Origin: Pilaira anomala
Lineage: Eukaryota; Mucoromycota; Mucoromycetes; Mucorales; Mucoraceae
Reading direction: 5' to 3'
Assembly: GCA_025716855.1 (NCBI GenBank)
Contig: JAIXMQ010000037.1
Span: 186,001 to 250,000 of the forward strand
Length of the DNA stretch: 64,000 nt
Of this stretch, positions 6,838 to 41,638 are shown piece by piece. The notes below the pieces were generated by a model. It ran no database searches, was not told where the DNA came from, and saw only the letters and a program-made list of their open reading frames with translations. How positions within the stretch are numbered: position 1 is the first letter of the stretch; every line of letters begins with the position of its first letter. Made by a program: the position numbers and the translations under genes.

Positions 6838-9800
6838 TCATTTATCAGTCACCGCTAAAGATTCTATATGTGTTGGTGACAATTTGTTATTGGTATTGGT
6901 TCTTCTACAATATTTTCTTAATGATTCAGCAAGTATCTTTTGATTTAATGGTTTAGTCAAATAACCATCCATGCCTGCATTAAGACAAATTTGTTTCGCA
7001 CTTTCTTGTACATCCGCTGTCAGTGCTACTATTGGGAACCTACAGTCTCTTTTTTCTTCCTTTTCAATCTCTCGAATTCTCTTTGTTGCCGCCACACCAT
7101 CACACTAAGTAAATAGAATAAGAGTAAGTATTTAAAAAAGACATTTAATAATATACATATTAGTTACCTTGGGCATATGATGATCAAAAAAGGCCATAAC
7201 GAAAAATCCTACTGGATGATTACTCCATGCATTGACTGCTTCTAGACCATTATTTGCACATTCAACTTGGAAGCCTAGTCTTGTAAGCTGTTTTAATAAT
7301 AGTTTTTGTGCTACAGGATTGTCTTTTAAAAATGAAATGACATAATGGTGATTAGTATAACAATAAAAAAAAAAAAAAAAAAAGAGAGATGTATTTTTTA
7401 CCTTCTGCAATTAAAATATTCATCGTACTAAATAAAGCTCTTTCTTCATCCGTAATCAATTTCACTGTCCTAGAGCGTGCATTATCTATTTTGGGTGCAG
7501 GCGCTACTTTTTGAAGCATTTCACCGATTGTACGTAATAGCTTAATTCGACGGAATGGTACAGCCATACGAATAGACTTGCAGTGCATTTTATCATTTGA
7601 AACAGGTTCAACTAAACCGGCTTGTCCTTGTGTCATACCTCCTGCTGGATAATTCATAATGATCACTAAACCATCCTTATTTAATTTACTAGCATCTTCT
7701 AACCAGGTAGATGAACTAGTTGAGGATGTATCCTTATTCATAAATAATCCTACAATAATCACATCGTACTTGTATTGTGTCACCATCTCATTGAATTCTT
7801 GAATCTCTGTTACTCCATCTACTTGAATACCAGGTAATATATGTCGAATCATATCTACTGTGGATGTAAATTTCGATATAGCTAATACTCGTATATTTGA
7901 AATACACTTCAATAATGCTTTACGATCATCTAATTGTTGTCCTTCCGTTTGAAGACTCTTGACTTGCTGAGTACGAAGTTTAGAAACTTGTACACTGAAA
8001 TAAAAGTCGGACCCTTTCCCTGGAACACTTGATACGTTGATTGTACCCGACATGAGTTCAACCAATTGAAGACAAATAGAAAGGCCAAGACCCGTACCAC
8101 CATACTTTCGACTGTAAATAAAAAACAAAAAACAAATAAATATCAAATAAATTAAGCTTTTTAATGCAACTTACGTTGTACTGCCATCCACTTGAGAAAA
8201 GGGTTCAAAAAGTACTTTTCTTTGTTCTTGACTAATACCAATACCTGTATCAATCACTTCAAACAATAAAGAGATTTGATCATCTTTTGTATGTGTTACA
8301 GTAGGATTAATAGAACATTGAATACGTATTTCACCTTGATGCGTAAACTTGATAGCGTTTCCAAGTAAATTAATAAGTACTTGACGTAACCTATTTCCAT
8401 CTGCCATCACAACAGAAGGTACATCTTCTGTCACAATATAGGAGATATTAATACCCTTTTGAATCGCCATCGCAATTAACATTTCAACCACATCCGCAAC
8501 AAGGTCTTCAATCACAACTGGTGAAATATCCAATGTCACTTTACCCGCTTGTAATTTAGAGAAATTCAATAAATCATCAATAATCTGTAACAAAATCTCA
8601 CACGATTCTTTTGCTGTCTTGACCAAATCACGTTGTTCATTATCAAGTGCCGTCTCTGCCAACAAAGAAATCATACCGTAAAAGCCAGAAAAGGGTGTAC
8701 GGATTTCATGACTCATATTGGCTAAAAATATCTCTCGTAATCGGGTTGCACGCACTGCTGCTTCTTTACTCTTCCTTGCATCTTCCAATGCTTGCTTTTG
8801 CATTTCAATCATTCTCATATTAGCCATCGTCACACGTTGCACAGATTTAAATAAAAATGCATTTGTGATAGAGATACCCATTTGCTGACAAAGTAAACTA
8901 AGCACTGTAATATGTCTCTGTGTGAAAATACCACTAGATCCTTCAATAAATAAACATCCTGCAAGTGCGCTTTTATGAATAATTGGCATACAAATCACCG
9001 ATTTACTACCAACGCGTTCGTACCATGGTCCAACTGCAAATCTTGCATCTTGATCTACGTTGTGTATAAATATACTTTCACCCGTATTGATCGTATGATG
9101 AATAATTCGACTTGAAACTAATCCATCGTCATCGGATAATGGTCTAGGTGGATCAAATGTCATAGACCCGTCTTGTTGACTTCCATAGGCACACATGCCA
9201 TATTTTTCTTCCTTGACTATAATCGCACCACAATCTGCACCCGAGTTCTCCAAGATGATAGCCATCATTGATTTCAACAAACTATCAAATTTCACTTCAG
9301 AAGAAATCACTTGTGAGCTCTTGAGAATCGATGCCATATCCAATATATCTAAAGTCAAGAGCGTCTGTTCTGTCGTGACGGGTGGAATCGTTTCAGACAC
9401 AAAAGGTTCATTAATTGTATTGATTTGACCCATAGAGGAAGTACTCCAAGTATTTTGTGGGCCCAAGAAAGGGAACGGATCAGTTTGAATACCTGTATCA
9501 TGAGACTCAAGACGTTCATCATCGTATTCACTCAAGAGTTGACTATACTTCATTCCTAAATGATTGGCCTTTCCATACGATCCATGATTGATATACAAAT
9601 TCATGGCCTTTTTGATCAACCCATAAGCTGCATTCTTTAAACCAGAACGAGCATAAAATCCACCTGCATATTCATGGCATACACATAAATCCAAGAACCA
9701 ACCTCCTTCTCTACATTGATCAATAGCCTTTTCATATAACTGGACTGTCTTTCCCATATCGTTTGTCAATGACGATTTCTCGGCTTCAACAAGTGTATAC

Positions 9801-12800
9801 CACATATTGAAATTCACTTGTGAATGAGCTACCCATTCTTCCAATTGAGCTTGATTTGCGTTCACACGTTCCATATAAATCTCGATTTCTTCTTCTGTGA
9901 GTTGTTCACACCGTAATTTTTCAATGATGGCTAATGAATGGTAAGTAAGCATCATACGTGTATGACGATGACCTGGATGGTTATGAATGCCACGAATACA
10001 CATGTACCCAACCGCAATCGCGTGTTCATAATGACCGTACAAGACCAAAGGCACCAATCTGAACGAATCGTACCAATTTAAGGGTACGTCCAGATTAGAA
10101 CTTTGTTTACAACTTTCTGAAATAAAATGTACGTCGTTGAACCCATCATCACCGTCAAAGATTTCAAAAGAGGAAGTATTGAATGTATGACCTTGAAGTG
10201 CTTTGATGGTACGAATGACGGCCATGATCAAAATATTCGAGTCTACAGAAGAGGACCAAGCGTGTATATCATCATAACAAGATTCAGCTTCAACCAATGT
10301 ATCTGCTAAATTCTCGCCCATGTAGTATAGACTAGTAGCAATATGTAAATGAGCAAAAGATGCATAGATACGATCACCGGCTGATAACGAATATCGAAGC
10401 GTAGATCGATAAAGAGGTAAGGAATCCTTGTAATGATGTTTCCAGACATGCAAGAAATTCGCGTATAAAAATCCAGCACGTCCCTTTTCATTGTATCCAC
10501 CCAATTTCTCTGTGATGGCTACACCTGCTGCACCCAACTCTTCACCATAGCTATACTGGTGATAGAATTCAACCGATGCTAAACCCATAAACACAAGTGC
10601 AATACCAGAGACTGAGGTCATACCTTTTGTGAGCGAAAGATGAACGATTTTAGAAGCCAAATAAAACATTTCAGTTTGATTTCCAAGCCAATAAGCTGCA
10701 GTACACATTTCCTCAAGTATGCTCATAATGGCTTTCAGTTTAGGATCTTCACATGGTTCTATCTTGAGCATCTCTTCAAATCCAATGCGATCAATGATCT
10801 TGATCACAGTAGTGTACTCGTTATCTAATTCACATCGTGTCAAGTTGTATCGAAAGTCTTCAATATCCAATTCAAATAAACATTTTCGTAACGATTCAGC
10901 TCCTTCATCATGCATCTGTCGAGCGAAAAAGTATTTGTTTTGAATGCGGTAAGCAGTGACTCTGTCCATAGGCTCAGTTGTGTTCTCAAAGATAATTGTC
11001 AAGTACTTTTCTGTGGTATCGTATTCACCTACAACCCAGCTCAATGCAACTGCATTTGAGTACAAGTAGTGTGTCATGGTGTATTCTTCTTGCCAGCTAT
11101 TTGGGTTCAAGAGAGAAATAGCTGCTTTATAGTATGCAAATGCCATCTTGTGTGCACCTGATGCACGCGATTTGTTACCTGCTTCAATCAAAATATCTCG
11201 ATAACATGATTTTTCTTCAAGTTCTTGAACGAGATTTAAACATTTCATTAAATGGTCTGAGACCAGGAAACTGTCCACAGTTTGTTCCATCAATAAGTAC
11301 TTTGCAATCTTTAAATGTATCTTTTCTCGACTCTTTGGATTAGCTAATTCCATTGCAGCTTGTGAGTATCGATCATGAGACCATTTGAATTCATCACTTT
11401 CTAACGGCAAGATATATCCTTCTTGAAGTGCAGCTTGTAATCCATTAATTGGATCTCGAGCTTCTTTACCACGAGACCGAGAATTCGAATGATGAAGTCC
11501 ACTTGCACTACTACTACTACTTCCACCACCTGTACTTCCATTTATTAACCCTCCACTTGAGCCAGTATTATGAGAGAACTTGATCAAGGGATGGAGTGAT
11601 TCGATCAACATGCTTGGATCCTCTACTTCATTTCCATTCACACTACGAGATCCAGAAGTGATTGTATCAGTATCAGAGAACTCGGATTCAGGATCTGAAT
11701 GCACCATTAAATGTTTGACTGTATTCCAAGAAAACGTATCACCTACAAACGAAGCCCATTTCAATAACCTTTGACCGTCCAAAGGTAATTCCTTTAATCG
11801 ATTGACCAAAAAGCTTATATCTAATTCTGCATCACGATCGGCACCTTCATGTGTCATAATCGCTTGTTGAATATCAGCCAAATTATAATCCCATTCGTTT
11901 TCTTCCCAGTTGAAAAAGATCATCTTCTTTTTTTCCAGCGTGACCAGCAGCTGTGAGGTGTAAAATGCATTACCGCGCGTCTTTTTGTATACGATTTCAG
12001 CTAGTGGTAATATCGTGTCTCGATCGACTTCTAAAGGTCGGTGAAGTGCATCACTAATATAATCTACAAGTGAATCAAAGTCCAATGCATCTACCTTGAT
12101 ATTACGGATCGTAGCATAATCGTTTGAGAGGAGCTTTTCGAGCGATTCATTTACTTCTTGATCTCGATAGGCTATAAAGATTAAGATTTTTAACCTTGAT
12201 CCAATCATACTTTCTATTAATTCGAGTGAAGGTTCATCAGCTAAATGCAAGTCATCTAAAAACTAAAATGATAGTATTTTAGTATACGTCTCCTCTTTTT
12301 ACTACGTATGTGTGTGTGTGTGTGTTTGCTTACCAAGGTAACCATACGCCATTGAGTGAGTGCTCGAAAGACTTCGACAAATAAATTATGAAATCGAATA
12401 CGAGTTTCTACATTATCCAAATGTACTTCATTCAAAGGTTCTTCAGAATCTTCACTATCGACTGGATCCAATAAAGGCTTTAACTCAGGCACTAAATCTG
12501 CTAATAACTCTATTTTACAAAACTGAGAACCTAAATGTGATTTCAAATGATTATAGAATAAATGAATTTCTTCTTCTGATTCTGAAAGTATTTGTTGCAA
12601 GATTTGTGAGAGTGATTTTAAAATACAACTGTAAGGTACTTTATGTCTTGAATCAAATTTAGATGTAGCTACATAACTATAAATACACAAATAAAGTCAG
12701 AAATTGAATATATATAATAATAGTCGTCATTGTATCTTTTTACCCGTGTTGTCGTGCTACATTTTGAACAGCACTAAAAATGGTAGATTTACCAACACCA

Positions 12801-14651
12801 CCTGGGCCGCAAATCGATACAATCTCTACACCTTGTCTATGTCCATTCATCACTCTACCATTTCCACTTGAAATATCACTTCCATCAAATCCACTACAAT
12901 AACTAGGCGATGCATTTGATTTAGAACCAATACCACTGAGTCCTACACCGCCTGGAAAACTACTTGTATCTGGAGCAGAACAATGATCACTTAAATCATC
13001 ACTGACACTGGCATTACCTGCATGAAAACTTTCGCTAGTAATTGTTTGTAATGTGGAACCGGCAGAATGTGATTTATCTCTTCTAGATCGAATTGATTTA
13101 TATACACCTGCAACACGTTGAATGATATATGTCATTTCTACTATCGTGCCTTGTCTACCATAAATTGTCTTTGGTAAAGTAAATACAGAGGCTACATCTC
13201 TTTCAGCTAAAGGAAATGATGGAATAATCTGTTGTAAGATTATATATATATATATATATAAAAATTAGTGTCTTGTAATAATTATCTAATATGTATACTT
13301 ACTTCATGTGCAGATTCGGGCGCAAAATTAAGTCGTTTTAAACATTCCTTTAGATCTGCTCTGATACCATATGCACTACTGTATCTATCATCAGGTGACT
13401 ATTAAAATTAATTAATAAGAAGTTATTATTATTGCTACTATGATTTACCTTATTCGTCATTTTTTCAACTATGCGAGCTAATACTTCAGGTACTTCTAAT
13501 TGAATTTCATGAATTAAAGGTATTTTTCTACTAAGGATACCATTTAATATCTCTAGAGGGCCACCATCAAATGGATTTCTTCCAGTCAATAAAACAAAAA
13601 AGACAATACCCAAAGAATAAATATCAGAACGATGATCAGGTACATAAGTAGTTCTACCGGTTTGTTCAGGACTCATATAAACTAATAGATTCTGTAACAT
13701 TTCCATTGATTCTTTATTATTTGCAGTCTTTCTCCAACCTTCACTTGTTAAATAAGCTTCTAATGATTTTGAGCCAGAGCCAAAATTCCACATTTTTACT
13801 CGAGCAGAATCTTCACCAGACCATTGAAATGCTGATAATCTAACTTCTCCATGAACAACATTATTTCTATGAATGAATTCTAAACAATCTGTACATTTGA
13901 TAGCAAAACGAAGAAAAGTACTGAGATCATATCTTGGCCCTACACTTGGTAATCCTGATGCAGATGGCATAGGTTGATAATAATTATCTGATTGATTATT
14001 ATTCATATTATTATATGTTGTTTCTATTTGTCGATTATTTGTATATCGTCTTGTCTTTTCATCGATTTCACTTCCTATACTAGAACTTTTATCAGAGTAA
14101 GCTATTCCACCACCACCACCACCACCATATTTTGAAAATGTCGCGTCATCTGATTGTCGTTTAATATCTAAATAATTTTGTCCTTCGTCAGCATATATTA
14201 CAACTGTTAATCCACTAGGTAAATGAATATATTCAAGTGGTCTAACTATAGATTGAGATCAGTAAAAAAAAATAATAATAACAAACTCCGAATAAAACAC
14301 AGTGTTCTAGTTCTCTTACCTAAAAACGAAGATCCATCACTAAGTTGAAATAACCTTTTCATGATATAATATTCTCTTTCTAATCTAAGAGAATTTGGAG
14401 ATACTTTTGCAACAACTGGTTTTTTATTTGAAATTCTAATAATATCATGTTAGGAAACATAAAATATAATATATTATATTATTATTTTGTATACAATACC
14501 GATATCCCGATACAATATCCACATTTTCACCGTGTGCTAAGCTAGGTACTGGTGCTGATTTAAAGTGGTAGTTTGGTATTTGTAAAGTGTCGCTCATAAC
14601 ACTAAACCCTGTTGAATCTGTAAACGATCCTGTGGATCCAGAATTCGACAT
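6838..14651 (-). CDS. group X hybrid histidine kinase: pseudokinase, AAA-type ATPase, helical repeats, GAF, HisKA, HATPase and receiver
   Basis: Ten exons (14500-14651, 14320-14435, 13449-14245, 13303-13398, 12744-13228, 12334-12676, 8175-12262, 7402-8111, 7168-7322, 6838-7104) encode 2402 residues. In order: a Ser/Thr-kinase-like domain (about 50-390), a P-loop GPGGVGKST (about 527) with Walker [13 protein letters not shown] (about 661-672) after the splice, a long TPR-like helical region, GAF (about 1640-1800), HisKA with NMSHEIRTP (about 1842), HATPase with [26 protein letters not shown] and GGTGLGLSI, a degenerate spacer, and a receiver (about 2240-2390) with AEDN, phospho-acceptor FFDHHMP, LTAD and YLTKP. 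This is the architecture of S. pombe Mak2/Mak3 and Candida Chk1, which signal oxidative stress through phosphorelay. The kinase-like domain has lost HRD and DFG aspartates. The missing start of its pair partner is not an issue: every expected phosphorelay residue is present. Confidence 0.94.
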
Positions 14652-29821: not shown

Positions 29822-30283
29822 TTAGTACAAGAAGTCTTGAGTCATATTTGATATCAACATGTTTGACTTTTCACGATTCATTTTACAACGTACGTTTGTA
29901 TTGTGTGTATGAATATTTAAATAGCGAATGGCGTTGCTCAAATCTTGTGCTAACGTTCTTTGTCTTTTGACGTAGCTATCTTCTTCTCTAATTCTCCTAC
30001 GTTTATTACTATATGTCTCTTTAAATTCGTCAATAACACTGTCTTGTTCCACTTGATTCCATACGTTTAATAAAGGCAACTTTTTACGAATGATAACCGG
30101 TGGTTCTTCTTCTTTTTGTTGGAAGTAGTGTTCAATTGATTTTTTTGAAACTCTTTTCGGTGTAATATAGTCCACAGGTTGGATAAACGCGATCGAAGGC
30201 TTAAAATCTATTGCTTTAGAAGAAGCTGAAACCTTTTCTCCTTTACGTCTTGGGGCAAACCCAAAGGCTTTAAGTGTTGACAT
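29822..30283 (-). CDS. small basic protein of unknown function with a PIP-box-like motif
   Basis: Single-exon frame of 153 residues that I do not recognise. Composition suggests a nuclear protein: many Lys/Arg, a KRRRIREED cluster near residue 95, and a KKSIEHYFQQKEEE segment around residues 48-61. KxxIxxYF resembles a PCNA-interacting (PIP) box with Lys in place of the usual Gln. A second possible short motif (STLKAFGF) sits at the very N-terminus. It is tail to tail with the TLDc gene, 89 bp between stops. The start is preceded by a 39-A run in the 5' region. The function suggestion is inference only. Confidence 0.6.
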   Translation of the reverse strand: MSTLKAFGFAPRRKGEKVSASSKAIDFKPSIAFIQPVDYITPKRVSKKSIEHYFQQKEEEPPVIIRKKLPLLNVWNQVEQDSVIDEFKETYSNKRRRIREEDSYVKRQRTLAQDLSNAIRYLNIHTHNTNVRCKMNREKSNMLISNMTQDFLY

Positions 30284-30301: not shown

Positions 30302-30347
<46 letters not shown>

Positions 30348-30762: not shown

Positions 30763-32842
30763 TTAATTATTTCCACCTAATTCTAACATGTCTTGTTCAG
30801 AATATCCAAGTAAAGTCAACACATATTTCAAACTCTTTTGATTGATTCTAGCACCAGCTTGTTCTTGAACACGTGGCTTGGCATTAAATGCAATTCCAAG
30901 ACCAGCCTTATTAAGCATCCACAAGTCATTTGCACCATCACCGACAGCAATGACTTGCTTTAATGTCAAACCCTCAGCCTGAGCAATAACTTCTAATAAT
31001 TCTGCCTTACGAAGACCGTCAACAATAGGACCAATAGTCTTACCAGTAAGAGTTAATCCATCTGGCGATACTTCGAGCTTATAAAGATAAAGATATATAA
31101 TTAATCAATCTACGTACACACATACACACAGACCCTGAATTTACCTGGTTAGCGAATGCATAATCTAATCCTAACTCTGCCTTAACATAAAGCGCCAATG
31201 GCATGAAGCCACCACTAATAACAGCTAATTTGAAACCAAGCTTTTTTAAAGCAAGACATAAGAAACGTGCACCTTCAGTAAAAGTAAGAATTTGCTTGAC
31301 ATTTTCCAGCACACCAACACTTGTTCCATTCAAGAGAGAGACGCGGCGACGTAAAGACTCCTTGAAATCAATTTCGCCATTCATAGCAGCTTCAGTAATA
31401 GCCTATCAAATAGAAAATAAGTAAAAAAAAAAGCCACATTAATACTACTATAAAACACTTACAGATACTTGATCAACAACACCTGCATATCTGGCAATTT
31501 CATCAATAACTTCTTGATAGATTAGAGTGGAATCCATATCAAATACAACAAGTCGTTTATTCTTTCTGAAAACATCATCACGCTGGAAGGCAACATCAGT
31601 ACCATGACTAGCAGATAAACCGATAAGTTCAGTACGGAGGGCACTCATATCCATGCCTCTAGGTACACTCAAACGAAGGTCAGCACAAGAGAGTTTACCG
31701 TTATCCTTATTTAACCTTATCATCTTTTCAACAGAGATACGATGTTTCAACAATAAACTAGTCCATTCACTTAAGAATGCAGAATCTAAACCATTTTGAT
31801 TCAAAATGGTGGCAGCATATTTAATACGCTCAGAATAAGGAGCTTCCTCGAGAGAGTGAGGGATATAAATGGGTTGGGAAACACGATTTTCCTTCTTCTT
31901 TTCTTTTTTCAAACTTTCTTTTTGTTCGCGAATCATTGGTTCTGTAGCTTGAGAATCAGGAATATCATAAGTCAAGGTAGCGTCCCATTTTTGAGCAGCC
32001 TCAGCTAAATCACGGAAAATTGCAACATTATCAGATTGTAAAGTAATGAGCACACCAAAAGTAACGTTATGATAAAGACGAGATAACATAAAATCATCAA
32101 TATTACAAGGGTGTTTAGCAAGGCAACCAAGAACAGCACCAACAATATCTGTTCCATGAGGACCTGATAAAGAAACCAACACTTTTTGATTTGGTACGAT
32201 AAAAGTAGGCGGTAATACGGTAGAGGGATTTAAATGTGTAGAGCGGCTTCTTACCATAATAGGAGATGTTGGAGACAAGGTTGCAATAGCAGCGTTACTA
32301 TCTGAGTGTTGTTCGTTTAATTTATTCATGACAGTTTTCTTTAAACCTGTCAAGTCTTCAGCTTTAACTAAAGGTAACTGAGCAACGCGTTGTAAGTAAG
32401 GTTCAGATAAGGAAAGACCTGAATGACGGTCATTCTTCTTCAAAATCTTTGTAATTCCAGAGTAATTAAGAAAGACAAACCTTTCGAGTGTGATAATTTT
32501 TTTCAGCAGTTCAGTTGTTGCTTCAGAAGAGTTATCGCTGACAACTTTTGGTGCCTCAGCAACGAGTTTTTGAGACTCTGCCTCGAAAAATTTAGTGGCC
32601 TTCTCAACTTGTTCGTCTAAGCTTTCAATAAACAAAACTTCGCATTTTTGTAACTGACCAAGACGCTCAGATACAAGTTGAGCAAAAGGCTTTTGTTGTT
32701 GTTGTAAGTTTTCGAGCTTTATAGAGTTTGGATAAATTCGTTCCTTTAATAGAGTCTTGAGCTTGTTGTATTCAATACAGTTGTTGGCATAATCTGTAGG
32801 TAAATAAGATTTACGCTCCTCCAAGTAGTTTCCAAATTTCAT
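30763..32842 (-). CDS. SPX-ACT-phosphoserine phosphatase fusion protein
   Basis: Three exons (31463-32842, 31145-31402, 30763-31077) encode 650 residues. Residues 1-145 form an SPX domain: MKFGNYLEER, CIEYNKLKTLLK, a coiled helical middle, LERFVFLNYSGITKILKKND with the Lys pair at 135-136 that in other SPX domains helps bind inositol pyrophosphates. Residues about 219-300 are an ACT domain (VLVSLSGPHGTDIVGAVLG). From about 386 the sequence follows bacterial-type SerB: a second ACT-like strand set, then the HAD core with DMDST (nucleophile D435), SGGF and GDGANDLWML. SerB makes L-serine from phosphoserine, releasing phosphate. The fused SPX suggests control by phosphate or inositol pyrophosphate status. 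The whole SPX-ACT-HAD start is one uninterrupted exon. I know of no characterised protein with this arrangement. Confidence 0.93.
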
Positions 32843-34537: not shown

Positions 34538-34586
34538 TCTCCAAAGTCGACAAAAAAATTAACTGTTGTATCAAAACCAAACAGAA

Positions 34587-35073
34587 ATGTCTGATTTAAG
34601 CAAGATTTACTCTGCAGTATATTCTGGAGTTCCAGTATTCGAAATGGTAGTGAATGGAATAGCTACTATGCGTAGGAGAACAGATTCGTACATGAACGCT
34701 ACACAAATTTTAAAAGTTGCAAACATTGATAAAGGAAGACGTACAAAGATCCTTGAGAAAGAAGTATTGAGTGGTGAACATGAAAAAGTACAAGGCGGGT
34801 ATGGAAAATATCAAGGCACTTGGTAAATAGACCTGTACCCCTTCACTCTTTCTTTTTTACTAATGCTTTAATTAAATGCAGGATTCCTTTTGATAAAAGT
34901 AGAGAATTAGCAGAAAGATACGGTGTTCTTGAGGAATTAAGTCCTCTATTCAATTTCGAATTAAATAATCTTCGTACCAAAGACGGTGAAGACTCTCTGC
35001 TCACAAAAGAACAAGCTATTGCTGCTAGAAGAAAATTAAATACTGAAGCTTTGAAACAGCAACAGCAAACAAC

Positions 35074-35115
<42 letters not shown>

Positions 35116-37463
35116 GCAACAACAGCAACAGCAACAACAACAGCAACAGCAACAGCAACAACAACAACAACAGCAACAACAACAACAACAACAGCAACAT
35201 CAACAACAACAGCAATATCAGCAACAATCTCAATCACTGCCGCAACCACCACAACAACAGCAATATCAACAGCAGCAGTATCAACCACGGCAATATCAGC
35301 CTAACCCACAACAGCAACAAAAGCCACCACCACAACGACCACAACAAATCCAGCAACAGCCACAACAGCCACAACAGCAGCAACAGCAGCAACAGCTTCA
35401 ACAGCAGCAATCACAACATACACAACAATATACGCAACAGCAACAGCATCATCATCAACAACAACAACATCATAATAATAATCATCATAATCATAATCAG
35501 CAGCAGCAACAACAACAAAGACAGACCCTTCTACCCCCCAACGACGAGGAGGAAATTTTAAAGCCACGTAAAAAGCCCAAGATAGCAGTAGAAGAAACGG
35601 GCGAACAAGCTGCTGCCAATGAAAGGGATCGAAGTATTCTGATGTCTATTTTCTTATCAGACAAACCTGAGCAAATCCCAGACTTACTTAAAGATGCACA
35701 TGAGGGTTCGAACTTCAATGTGGATATGGTGATTGATGAACAAGGCCATACGGCACTTCATTGGGCCACTGCATTAGCAAGAGAAAAGACAATTGAATTA
35801 CTGGTTTCTAAAGGCGCAAATATTTCATGTAAAAGTTATACGGGCGAAACTCCGTTAATGCGTGGTGTGATGGTAACAAATAGCTTTGATAATAACAGTT
35901 TCTCAAGAACCTTTGAGCTCTTGAAAGATTCAATTACAATGCAGGATAATAAAAAAAGAACTGTTTTGCATCATGCTGCCTTAACTGCTGGTATTCATGG
36001 TCGTACGAACGCCGCTGTGTATTATATGAAGATTTTGGTGAATACTATTTCGAATGGAAATGAAGATGTTAAATCAATTATAAATGCTCAAGATTCCCTT
36101 GGTGATACTGCTCTTAATATTGCTGCTAGGTTGGATTGTCAACCACTTGTAGACATTTTAGTTGAAGCTGGAGCCACGCAATCTGCTGAGAATAATAATG
36201 GGCTACAAATGAGAGACTACAATGATACGGTAAACTATTTCTTTTATACTTAGCATAGTGCATGTGACTGATTTTTTTTTTTTTTTATCTTTCTAGGATA
36301 CACATATGGAAGATGTGTCTCGAAGCCAACGCGATTTTCCTAGTTCTTCTACACCAGCCAAAAAACCTTTTCCTTCTAGTCAAAGAGGAAAAGAGATTGT
36401 TGCTAGTAAGTAAATGTTCTGTCTTTTTTAAATCGCATGTTTATATAACCGATATATCTTTTTTTTTTCTGTAGCCGTTCAAAAGATTGTTGATGCCTTG
36501 GATGATGAGTATGGAGGTCAATTAGCAACTAAGGAACAAGAGCTTCAAAGTGTCCAAAACGAACTAAACTCTGTAACTGAAGAATTAGAAGCTACAAGAA
36601 AAGGACTAGAGGAACGTCAAGCACAATCGCAAAAATTATCAGAAGCTCAACAAAAGACTAGAAATATTGAAAGCGCACTTCAGTCAGGCTGGAATCACCT
36701 TGAAAAGGTTATGAAGAATGCTGGTAAAACGATGCCGAGCTTGAGTGATATCGAAAATATAGATGAAGATGAGGATATTGATTTATTATTTAACGTGCCT
36801 GAATTAATTATACCTGAAGACGCAACAGAAGAAGAAAAAAAGAAGAAATTGAATGAATATATTAGAAGCGTTCAAGCCAAGGTCAAAGCTTATACTAGGA
36901 ATGATCAAGAATTACAAGATGAAATTAAAGAATCAGAAAATATATTTTATGAAAAGGAAATGCAATGTAAACGTTTGATAGCTGCTTGTTGTAATCTTCC
37001 AATTGATAAGATTGATGAGTTAGTTGAGCCTCTTACTTTAGCTATTGAAAGTGATCCACCAGACCTTGATCTCGCTCGTGTTATTGGATTTATGGATAAG
37101 ATTAGGAGACAAGGTGCATTTACTGAACCTACTACTAGTGATAATGGTCCTTCTTCGGCTATCTCTGTTTCAGCTATGCCTGATACGCCTACTACACCAA
37201 TGGCACCTCATATCGATATGGATCCTATTGTGGCTAATACACCAGAACATGATACTCTCAGTCCAGAAAATAGTCAATCATTCACGATCGATTCATCATC
37301 TGCCGTACCTATTGTAGTCACCTCTGAACCCGATAAAGTTCTTAAAGAAGATATCAATATTGAATCAAGTATAACAGATCCTGATACTACAACTGTCGAA
37401 CACCCACTAAAGGAAATAAAGGAAGAATCACCAGATAATGATGTTAAAATGACTTTAGCTTAG
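34587..37463 (+). CDS. APSES/KilA-N transcription factor with polyQ, ankyrin repeats and coiled coil (Mbp1/Res family)
   Basis: Four exons (34587-34822, 34882-36229, 36297-36405, 36475-37463) encode 893 residues. The APSES DNA-binding domain (about 8-105) has [29 protein letters not shown] and [15 protein letters not shown] then IPF across the first intron. A Gln-rich tract with His, Pro and Tyr interruptions covers about residues 137-291. Ankyrin repeats occupy about 363-510 ([46 protein letters not shown]). A coiled coil (about 570-640) and acidic Ser/Thr/Pro-rich tail finish it. This is the Swi4/Mbp1/Res1-Res2 architecture, the DNA-binding half of MBF/SBF that drives G1/S genes with Swi6-type partners. 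The Q tract is much longer than in the yeast proteins. Confidence 0.93.
35058..35525 (+). repeat. CAA/CAG repeat tract encoding polyglutamine
   Basis: An almost pure run of CAA and CAG codons, later broken by His, Tyr and Pro codons, inside the APSES gene. It yields long spurious open frames on the minus strand. Confidence 0.95.
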
Positions 37464-37722: not shown

Positions 37723-40327
37723 TTACTTTCTCAAGTCTGCAATACGCACAGCGACAGCATTACGATGAGCACCAAGACCTTCAATTTCAGCAAGACGCAT
37801 AACAGTATCACCAAGTAAATCCATACCTTCAGCGGTGCATTCTTGAGAAGTGATGTGCTTAACGAAACCGTTGGTGTTAACACCAGAATACATACGAGAA
37901 TAACCATAAGTAGGTAAAGTGTGGTTGGTACCAGAGGCATAGTCACCGAAACTTTCAGGTGAGTAGGGGCCTACAAACACACTACCGGCATTATCAACTT
38001 GAGGTAAAACGTGAGCGGCGTCTTCGATATGTAAGATTAAATGTTCAGGTGCATAATCATTTGAGAATTGCATAGCTTCCTCTAAAGTCTTCATAGATAA
38101 AGTGTATGAATGAGGGATACTCTTACGGATGATATCACAACGAGGCAAGACAACAGCTTGTTCATGAACTTGATCTTCAATTGCCTTCAAATGCTCTGGG
38201 GTTAAATCAACAGCCAAGAGAACAACTTGTGAATCAGCACCATGCTCTGCTTGAGATAATAAATCAGCAGCAACATAGCTTGGGTTACTCGTCATATCAG
38301 CAATGACAAGTACTTCAGATGGACCAGCAGGCATATCAATAGCAACAAGACTAGCTGTATCATTTTGAGCTACCATCTTGGCAGCTGTAACATATTGATT
38401 ACCAGGACCAAAGATTTTATCAACTTTAGGAATGGTTTCAGTACCATAAGCCATAGCAGCTACAGCTTGTGCACCGCCTGCTTTAACGACATGAGAAGCA
38501 CCTACTTTATGAGCAACATATAAAACTTCAGGTACAACAGATCCATCAGGACGAGGAGGTGTAGCCATGACGATCTCACGACAACCAGCGACCTTGGCAG
38601 GAATACCCAACATGAGAGCAGTAGAAGGTAAGACAGCAGTTCCACCAGGAACATAAAGACCGACACGTTCAATAGGACGAGTGAATCTAGAACAGGTGAC
38701 ACCAGGCATAGTTTCAACAACTAAAGTTTCTCTATCCAATTGAGCATCATGGAATTTGAAGATATTATCATAAGCTTGATCAATTGCCTTCTTTGTCAAA
38801 GGATCTAATTCCATTAAGGCAGGATCAAAAGGTGCTTTGATTGTATGAGATTCAAGTTCAACACGATCGAATTGACGTGTGAAATCTAAAATGGCTTTAT
38901 CACCACCTTGTCTCACTTTTTGCATGATAGGAGTAACACGGTTAATGATTTCAGTAGAATCAATAATAGGACGTAATAAAAGACGATTACGTTGTTGACC
39001 TGAAATTTCGTTCAAGTTGTACTTCATCATTTCAATACGACCTGTACTGTTATCTTCTGGTTGAACAGCAGCAACAGGTTCTTCTTTTTTCTCTTCATAC
39101 TTGGGCTTAGCGTTACCAGGACGACGGGTTACCTTTCTAGCCTTCTTATTCAAGTTCTTTTCAATATCAGCTAAAGATACACCAGCACTAACACACTTGG
39201 CAAGAGCAAAATAAATTAAATCAGCTGCTTCCCATGCAATTTCTTCTTTATCGGTAGCATCACAAAGTTCTTCGGCTTCTTCTAAAATCTTGGCACGTAA
39301 TAATTTAGGATCGTTGAATAAACGTGCGGTGTAAGATCCAGCAGGTGCATTACTCTTTCTATCCTTTAATGTCTTTTCTAAAGCAGTGATACCAGAATCG
39401 TGACCGAAACAAGTACGAGTGTTCAAGTGACAGAAACCTAGAAGAAGAAAAAAAAATATATTAGCAATTGTGTATTTAATATTTTTATAAATTTATATGC
39501 TTACCAGCACCATGTTGTTCAACAACAAAACGTAAAGCATCTCCATCACAATCATAATCAATATGCTTCAATGTTTGAGTAGCACCAGAAGTCAAACCCT
39601 TATGCCAAAGACCTCTATTACGAGATTGATAAACGCCTTGACCAAGTCGAATGGATTCAGCAACACTTTCCTTGGAAGAATAAACTAATCCAAGAGCCTT
39701 ATTGAATTCATCGACTACCATAGTAGTATAAAGACCATCAGGACGATCCGTCTTTGCAGTAGCTAAAAAGGCTTCAGCAATATTCAATTTTCCAGATTTG
39801 TCATCATCTACTTTGACAGTTAAACGAGAAGCAGGTACAATCACATCCAATTGGTGAGTTTGATATTCAGCAATTGCTTCAATTGTGACATTTTCCAATT
39901 GAACAACAGTAGTCTTTTCTCCACCATGACCTAATAAACAGGACTTGGTCTTCTTGGCAAAGGCACTGACAGCTTCTAAATCTTTAGCATTTTGAATGAT
40001 AAAAGTAGAGGCCTTGACAGAATCAAGGTTAGCAATAGAAGGAGCAACGACAGCAATACGTTCTTGACCAATGTCGGCTAATTCAGATTGAGCAGCTTGA
40101 TAAGTGTCCAAAGAAAAGATAACTTTTAATACACCAATATCCCATAACTGAACAGCTTCTTCAACTGAATTGGCATATGCCCAGTAGAGAGTAGAACCAG
40201 TTTGGTTGATCAAGGACTTAATTTGATCAACATTACCGTTCTGGAGAATAACAGAGCCAAAAAAGGATAAAGAAGAATAGAGAGAGGCTTGGTTAGTGTC
40301 AGCCAAGTCAAGTGAAGGTATAAACAT
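37723..40327 (-). CDS. HIS4: trifunctional histidine biosynthesis enzyme HIS4
   Basis: Two exons (39505-40327 and 37723-39437) encode 845 residues. The protein catalyses steps 2, 3 and 10 of histidine synthesis. After an N-terminal segment of about 200 residues comes the phosphoribosyl-AMP cyclohydrolase part (HKGLTSGATQTL, DYDCDGDALRFVVEQHGAG, FCHLNTRTCF, with metal-binding Cys and His spanning the intron). Next is the phosphoribosyl-ATP pyrophosphohydrolase helix bundle (EEAEELCDA, EIAWEAADLIYFA) and, from about residue 415, histidinol dehydrogenase (GLYVPGGTAVLPSTALMLG, KIFGPGNQYVTAAK, MPAGPSEVLVIAD, AEHGADSQVVL, GDYASGTNHTLPT). Order and length match fungal His4. All expected motifs are present. 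Confidence 0.97.
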
Positions 40328-41638
40328 TTTTAAGGGAAAAAAAAGAAGTTATATATTTCTTTTTTAGATGAAAAAAAAAATATATATATACATATACATA
40401 CACCCCCAAATTATGTCAAAACTTTACACAGTCACCTCTTCCAATGATGCCTTATGAATCACCTCAACTTTAAATCCAGAGAATCGGACCAGTAGAAATA
40501 AAGGTGATAAACTGAATGAGGTAACTTGAATATATGTAGTATTACAACTTGGTAAAAGCTATTAAAACTTCAGCTTACAATAGGATCAACTTCTATTTCA
40601 ATTGAGTATAAAAGAAAAGAGTAAAAAAAAAAAAAAAAGGAAAAGTTTAAGCCTACCGAATCTGTCAAGGGTAGAAATATTCTATTAGCAGCGGGTAGCT
40701 GGCCTAGAAAATTTACACGAATGAGCTCATAGTAGGTAACCAAGCAACCAAAAAACTTTGGTGTATCATGAGCAACTGAATTCATTATAAAGTTGCATTT
40801 GTTATCATCTACTATTATTACTACCAAAAATTCTTTTAAAACCCTCCGTATGATTACTATAGACAAGTGTAATTGAGAAGATTTTATCTTGAATACTTAC
40901 TACTATTATCATTGATAACTAATGGTATCACAGTTAGCGTTAGTAACAACATACATGTTCACTAATAATTTTAATACATATATTCATGTCATATTACTAG
41001 TTACCATGTCTGAGATTTTCCCCTGAATATCTTTATTCTCAGGTACATACCTATCTGCATAGTTAAAATTCTTTTGATGTCTTCCGCCTATACTTTTGAT
41101 ATCGTACTAACAACTTTATTCTAAGAAACAGTTTAAAGGTCAAGAGCATATTAAAGGATAAGTATCAAACAATGCTATAATTAAGTTTTTGAGATGTAAT
41201 CAAATTGCATTTGAGGATATTTTTACGGTCTAGTTACTGAAACCATAATGTAAAAGAAAAAATATGATTACATAACAAAGGGGTGTCAAATACAAACTTG
41301 TACCTGAATTTTAAGAAGTAAAAAAGAAATATATATGGTATGTGTACAAAAGGTTTAACCTGAGAAGGATGAAAAAGAAATATCTTTAATGACAATGTAT
41401 ACTATTACACAGATGCAAAGGATATCCATGTTGTGCAGATCACTGAAAATATTACGTGCGATATGCATTGCTTTTGCTTTAATTACAAATCTCCTTTTCC
41501 ATATCATTGTCGCGTCATGATTGGTTTATTATAAAAAGTAATGAAAAAGATCAAAATTGTGCAGCATGAGAAAAATGGTTCGGAGTATGCGTTTTTAATA
41601 TTTAGCTCTTTCTCCTTTTTTTTTTTTTTTAATTCAAG
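40328..41638. promoter_or_regulatory. divergent 1.3-kb intergenic region between HIS4 and VPS35
   Basis: No gene is seen. It contains a (TA)n stretch at 40380-40390 and short homopolymers. A minus-strand open frame at 40570-40866 has no recognisable domain. In other fungi HIS4 is under general amino-acid control, but I did not find a clear TGACTCA element in the HIS4-proximal part. Confidence 0.4.

Follow-up and report, generated by a model that had tools for sequence, protein, structure and literature searches.

We describe here a gene on the minus strand of a 64,000-nucleotide stretch of the genome of the fungus Pilaira anomala (contig JAIXMQ010000037.1, positions 186,001 to 250,000; hereafter the window), whose predicted product joins an N-terminal SPX domain to a pair of ACT domains and a phosphoserine phosphatase of the SerB type. 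This SPX-ACT-SerB fusion is widespread in early-diverging fungi and is not specific to the P. anomala genome. SPX domains are known as inositol-pyrophosphate receptors on proteins of phosphate transport, storage, or signalling; in this case, a known sensor is placed on a new class of effector. Judging from the sequence, and with a probability of roughly two in three, we propose that SPX gates the phosphatase, so that serine output would follow phosphate status, counting either sign of control. The computed basis of this proposal is one open frame through the domains, the conservation of ligand and catalytic residues, and a wide distribution, from which we infer ligand binding, its effect on activity, and the direction of control.

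Gene Structure and Domain Organization

The coordinates of the gene and its features are collected in Table 1. As the initial annotation had claimed, SPX, ACT, and the beginning of a SerB-type HAD core lie in one continuous, stop-free first exon; it comprises 460 codons and takes in both ACT domains and the HAD motif DMDST, and the two introns that follow are both phase 0. The start codon is well supported by the alignment, with Met1 and Lys2 each present in 92 of 96 full-length sequences (the window protein and 95 homologs), and the homolog search returned a full-length homolog with 93% identity at 100% coverage.

Table 1. Positions of the SPX-ACT-ACT-SerB gene and its features in the window
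Feature	Position	Strand	Basis or remark
Whole coding span	30763..32842	-	650 aa, 3 exons; spliced translation
Exon 1	31463..32842	-	SPX, linker, ACT1, ACT2, HAD motif I; single stop-free frame
Intron 1	31403..31462	-	60 nt, GT..AG
Exon 2	31145..31402	-	Spliced translation
Intron 2	31078..31144	-	67 nt, GT..AG
Exon 3, stop codon included	30763..31077	-	Spliced translation
SPX domain, residues 1-181	32300..32842	-	
Tyr25 (Vtc4 Y22), phosphate-binding cluster	32768..32770	-	Alignment; 57/58, remaining one a gap
Lys29 (Vtc4 K26), phosphate-binding cluster	32756..32758	-	Alignment; 57/58, remaining one a gap
KILKKNDR, residues 132-139	32426..32449	-	K132, K135, K136, R139 = Vtc4 K129, K132, K133, K136
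Linker, residues 182-217, low confidence	32192..32299	-	pLDDT <50 at 183-211 (ortholog's model)
ACT1, residues 220-293	31964..32185	-	Pfam ACT_6 at 221-290; predicted structure
ACT2, residues 339-421	31580..31828	-	Model secondary structure; aligned with M. avium SerB2
HAD phosphatase, residues 428-650	30766..31561	-	TIGR00338; span includes both introns

The SPX Domain and Its Putative Ligand Site

The initial annotation had called the SPX domain convincing, pointing to its lysine pair, and had held that a score below SPX thresholds would refute it; the match to Pfam PF03105 lies narrowly above, with 28.2 bits against a gathering score of 27.8, and the ligand residues are kept. In the genome-wide profile search the gene scored 24.9 bits, or 35.5 with neighbours in frame. 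The predicted structure has the SPX fold, the match coming from a second look with VIA-align, and no SPX chain is found among the 50 Foldseek rows shown.

The InsP6 site of Vtc4 is made of Y22, K26, and K133 together with K129, K132, and K136 (PMC9911596). The window protein has both the phosphate-binding cluster (Y25, K29, K136) and the lysine surface cluster (K132, K135, R139), differing from Vtc4 in the last residue and sharing the other five. Conservation was ranked for 175 SPX positions in 58 sequences of less than 88% pairwise identity. K132, K135, and K136 are each present in all 58 and rank 1, Y25 and K29 rank 8, and position 139 is Arg in 51 sequences and Lys in 7. The mean identity of the six positions, 0.974, was reached in 22 of 100,000 trials in which six K/R/Y positions within SPX were picked at random, a test that ignores the relatedness of the sequences, which all positions share.

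We also built a family SPX model from the window protein and the 95 of 120 listed homologs with at least 600 amino acids, which match it by construction. The signature YKKKK(R/K) is found in 107 of the 117 proteins that match this model. Six of the ten exceptions, fragments or shortened models, have gaps at the first two ligand positions and an intact Lys cluster, and two Smittium proteins carry Arg for Lys at two Lys positions. Part of the ligand cluster is missing in Absidia cylindrospora P0023, probably through a gene-model error, and most of the basic cluster is missing in Neolecta. Conservation becomes poor around residues 176-200 of the alignment.

The ACT and Phosphatase Domains

Two ACT domains precede the HAD domain, as in ACT-regulated SerB, although the Pfam scan called ACT1 alone and missed ACT2. 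A conserved motif of ACT1, GPHGTDI (residues 227-233, window positions 32144-32164, minus strand), stands in fungal SerB where ACT domains usually have their ligand loop; bacterial SerB proteins have forms such as GxDxPG instead, and the DQPG of M. avium corresponds to HGTD. The GPHGTD motif also occurs in an SPX-less Coelomomyces protein, and so is not a consequence of the fusion. We take the glycine of the mycobacterial DQPG segment to be G18 of the M. tuberculosis enzyme (MtSerB2). It is not kept in the window protein, where Asp232, invariant in 58 of 58 sequences, is aligned at its place. Since G18 and G108 are needed for serine binding in MtSerB2 (PMC4270767), serine feedback, if any, need not work in the fungal protein as it does there.

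The phosphatase matches the SerB equivalog TIGR00338 with 262 bits against a cut-off of 144.15. The HAD motifs DxDST, Ser, Lys, and GDGxND are all found in the window protein, along with the substrate Glu and Arg, and the catalytic and substrate residues (D435, D437, E444, R480, S523, K570, D593, D597) are invariant in 58 of 58 sequences; their roles are those generally assigned in the family. In MtSerB2, D185, D187, S273, K318, D341, and D345 were mutated (PMC4270767). Over 258 residues the HAD part is 48% identical to yeast Ser2. By these sequence features, the window protein is the predicted phosphoserine phosphatase of the fungus, a Ser2/SerB ortholog that would act at the final step of serine synthesis. 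This step is the one at which the route from 3-phosphoglycerate releases one phosphate (PMC7864628).

A tree was built from 54 rows, namely 52 picked from 228 proteins, the window protein, and yeast Ser2, and the program warned of long branches, with Ser2 and an aphelid foremost. The nine non-fungal rows (six bacterial, four of them assigned from domains alone, and three protist) fall on one side of a branch with support 90/84, recovered in 93% of 200 bootstrap trees. Elsewhere the tree broadly tracks fungal groups, such as chytrids with Piromyces (97/92) and Endogonales to Mucorales (95/92). The initial annotation had seen the SerB part as bacterial in style, hinting at transfer followed by fusion; with bacteria thinly sampled, the Ser2-like HAD sequence and the separation of the non-fungal rows do not support a recent bacterial transfer.

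Distribution of the Fusion among Fungi

The homolog search scored 7997 candidates and yielded 1704 homologs. The best 120 are listed, and 110 of these carry the Pfam SPX label, which is the count independent of our family model. The taxonomic survey that the initial annotation had proposed thus recovered the same fusion, with a spread that the annotation itself had missed. The labelled proteins come from Mucorales, Umbelopsis, Endogonales, Mortierella and its kin, and Basidiobolus; from the Glomeromycotina Rhizophagus, Ambispora, Geosiphon, and Diversispora; from Syncephalis, Thamnocephalis, Martensiomyces, and the gut fungus Piromyces; and from the chytrids Spizellomyces, Rhizophlyctis, Powellomyces, and others, the higher groups being those to which we take the source names to belong. 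Three of the ten unlabelled homologs match the family model (P0010, P0023, and P0030, the first two of which helped to build it), one is a fragment (P0120), and three are Rhizopus or Cunninghamella models truncated ahead of ACT1 (P0028, P0038, P0041; see below).

The unlabelled proteins of Lichtheimia, Fennellomyces, and Circinella (P0074, P0080, P0096) begin just before ACT1 and have no SPX. This looks like a single real loss, because the three adjoin in the tree (100/99, inside Mucorales), start near ACT1, and have no SPX-bearing row under these genus names among the matches listed. Tieghemiomyces P0174 (466 aa), likewise without SPX, groups with the SPX-bearing Martensiomyces and Smittium (83/85).

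A second search, with yeast Ser2 as bait and restricted to long proteins, listed the best 120 of 2000 matches, 108 of them new. Among them are proteins from named ascomycetes (358-480 aa, and 1083 aa in one from Pichia), from an aphelid, and from Coelomomyces, none of which matches the family SPX model; the same holds for the dinoflagellate and other non-fungal rows among these best 120. The model matched three of the 108, two from Smittium and one from Neolecta irregularis. The match of the Neolecta protein (590 aa) covers positions 55-180 of the model and lacks the ligand segment (52.8 bits, best stretch 51.8), and this remnant may reflect real erosion or a faulty gene model; a third search, with Neolecta residues 1-340 as bait, returned only Neolecta itself. 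No basidiomycete name was recognised among the matches listed, no search having been aimed at Basidiomycota.

The simplest reading of this pattern would be a gain near the base of the fungi followed by losses, including one in Ascomycota; a later gain, once Blastocladiomycota or aphelids had branched off, would fit equally well. Placing the SPX label on the tree needs three changes, of which well-supported branches force at least two. A simple ascomycete loss is opposed by the position of Neolecta, which we take to be an ascomycete: it sits beside early-diverging fungi (86/81), whereas the nine other ascomycete rows form their own group (96/88). Any one of three things would account for this placement: long branches, a second enzyme lineage, or a loss with rapid change afterwards.

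Proposed Mechanism and Alternatives

Phosphate-dependent control of serine output, raised in the initial annotation, is a sensible idea from the sequence, and a mechanism can be outlined. Hydrolysis of O-phosphoserine by the HAD domain would yield serine and phosphate. The ACT pair would serve as the regulatory platform, and a flexible linker of about 35 residues would tether SPX to ACT1. The Tyr and Lys clusters of SPX would bind InsP7 or InsP8, and this binding would move the ACT-HAD assembly between states that differ in activity. In mycobacterial SerB2, ACT1 is exchanged between partners, and where it lies distinguishes active dimers from inactive forms (PMC10564941); as SPX stands directly before ACT1, a large anionic ligand, or SPX contacts under ligand control as in VTC (PMC10167327), could shift a SerB2-like equilibrium.

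Both signs of control are plausible, namely growth control, with the enzyme on at phosphate plenty, or phosphate recovery, with the enzyme on at scarcity. In the first case, ligand-free SPX would restrain the enzyme and ligand binding would release the restraint. We slightly favour this activation by ligand because ligand binding activates VTC (PMC9911596, PMC10167327). The same precedent counts against the reverse sign, in which inositol pyrophosphate would inhibit and phosphate starvation would open a phosphate-releasing step; this variant of gating, a possibility that we hold only tentatively, draws on the liberation of phosphate in the serine-forming step (PMC7864628) and on the statement that phosphate overaccumulation opposes phosphate-liberating reactions (PMC10511240).

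Several observations weigh against gating of either sign. The SPX domain of Vtc3 has equivalent residues, partly buried, whose mutation has little effect (PMC9911596), so the conservation of lysines is no proof of a regulatory role. Among the 175 SPX positions R139 is only 32nd, and K33, Y149, and K168, outside the named ligand site, nearly equal the best positions in conservation, so that fold constraint may explain part of the conservation signal. The ortholog's model defines only loosely where SPX lies with respect to the enzyme (pTM 0.60, linker pLDDT <50). SPX is absent in Lichtheimia, Fennellomyces, Circinella, Tieghemiomyces, Coelomomyces, the aphelid, and the named Ascomycota except Neolecta; these relatives keep the enzyme, hence SPX is dispensable for catalysis. 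Finally, the models from Rhizopus microsporus, R. stolonifer, and Cunninghamella echinulata (P0028, P0038, P0041) begin after SPX. Their starts fall between SPX and ACT1, within the linker, and in two cases coincide with the counterpart of window Met172 (MNKL); they are probably a matter of annotation, SPX-less isoforms being possible.

SPX could instead bind inositol pyrophosphate mainly for location or for docking to a partner, such as other SPX proteins or VTC, with little catalytic effect; we consider this unlikely, and know of no partner of an SPX-phosphatase. The long linker, disordered in the model, and the retention of the enzyme in SPX-less relatives would suit such a role, as would the homotypic SPX-SPX contact that controls the VTC complex (PMC10167327), but SPX lies directly ahead of ACT1, the domain whose repositioning controls mycobacterial SerB2 (PMC10564941), which makes direct control structurally easy.

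That SPX is a structural leftover with its sensing lost appears very improbable. Its absence or erosion in several lineages, including the Neolecta remnant, speaks for this reading, but a leftover should lose its ligand residues early, as Neolecta did, and across phyla five of the six ligand positions are joint first or joint eighth of 175, the sixth being basic in 58 of 58. The notion of an artefact, with two adjacent genes or an annotation merge behind the fusion, can be rejected with near certainty given the continuous frame of exon 1, which has no stop between SPX and HAD motif I and needs no intron there, and given the 95 full-length homologs, many of which come from separately annotated genomes.

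Genome Context in Pilaira anomala

The assembly, possibly incomplete, yielded no second SerB: three of its 16 TIGR00338 matches are exons of this gene, and the others score at most 32.1 bits. The SPX fusion looks like the only phosphoserine phosphatase of the fungus. Matches to the SerA family (ten, the best with 258.4 bits against a cut-off of 454) and to SerC (419.2 bits against 443.6) are present, falling short of the cut-offs under exon-by-exon scoring. Four loci of the inositol-polyphosphate kinase family IPK and two with a PPIP5K N-terminal domain make it probable that the fungus can synthesise the inositol-pyrophosphate messenger.

The SPX profile has 26 matches, grouped into 20 loci including this gene. 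For the 19 others we scanned 20 larger open frames with exons unjoined, which gives a sketch: 15 have a usual SPX partner (VTC in seven, CitMHS transporter in four, ankyrin/GDE1 types in three, EXS in one), and no biosynthetic-enzyme partner was seen in the frames scanned. The remaining four (L031, L035, L038, L040) have no assigned partner domain, the frames scanned including none of L038 or L040.

The gap that separates the gene from the neighbouring frame on the minus strand (29822-30283) contains 39 consecutive A residues (30307-30345, plus strand), an unusually long homopolymer that is possibly an assembly feature. On the other side, an ankyrin-repeat protein (34563-36253, plus strand) begins with a part resembling an APSES/KilA-N DNA-binding domain, followed by very long tracts of glutamine and histidine. 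A HIS4-type fusion of phosphoribosyl-ATP pyrophosphohydrolase and histidinol dehydrogenase is found at 37723-39492 (minus strand), with a further open frame of 287 codons at 39485-40348. Two minus-strand frames, one with a protein-kinase domain (13350-14258) and the other of GAF-histidine kinase type (8171-12262), may belong to one dual-kinase gene.

Relation to Known Systems and Significance

The HAD part and catalytic residues are shared with the fungal Ser2/SerB phosphoserine phosphatase (yeast SER2; TIGR00338). Yeast Ser2, with 309 aa, lacks SPX, whereas the window protein has SPX and a recognisable ACT1; the mycobacterial SerB2 proteins (M. avium 3p96/5jlp, M. tuberculosis Rv3042c) have no SPX either. 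VTC, a polyphosphate polymerase, and Gde1/Pho81 are enzymes or regulators in phosphorus metabolism that likewise have SPX at the N-terminus, but here the effector is a serine-synthesis phosphatase, and it also differs from the membrane transporters of the XPR1/Syg1 and Pho87/90/91 types.

The initial annotation knew of no described SPX on a serine-synthesis enzyme. Our searches on SPX with serine synthesis, with ACT or HAD domains, in early fungi, and in fungal architectures agree, with no description of SPX on a phosphoserine phosphatase found in full-text literature whose coverage leaves out most subscription journals, nor of the fusion in passages of PMC7614388, PMC13412362, and PMC7864628. 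The proteins themselves are public; many bear the name phosphoserine phosphatase or HAD-like, and their SPX assignment is automatic. The architecture is thus visible in databases and, within the reach of these searches, apparently undescribed in the literature, an undetected report being possible.

As for its history, we give an even chance to the view that early fungi evolved an inositol-pyrophosphate-gated phosphatase linking phosphate status to serine and one-carbon supply, a wiring that arbuscular mycorrhizal fungi, most Mucorales, gut fungi, and chytrids would have kept and that Ascomycota and the Lichtheimia group would have dismantled. As a soluble enzyme with a simple assay, the protein would make SPX allostery directly measurable, with its SPX-less relatives as natural controls. 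If the proposed gating is true, SPX receptors control central amino-acid metabolism besides phosphate transport and storage, and SPX on the apparently sole phosphoserine phosphatase of a fungus, kept from Mucorales to chytrids and in arbuscular mycorrhizal fungi, would extend the signal to amino-acid and one-carbon metabolism.
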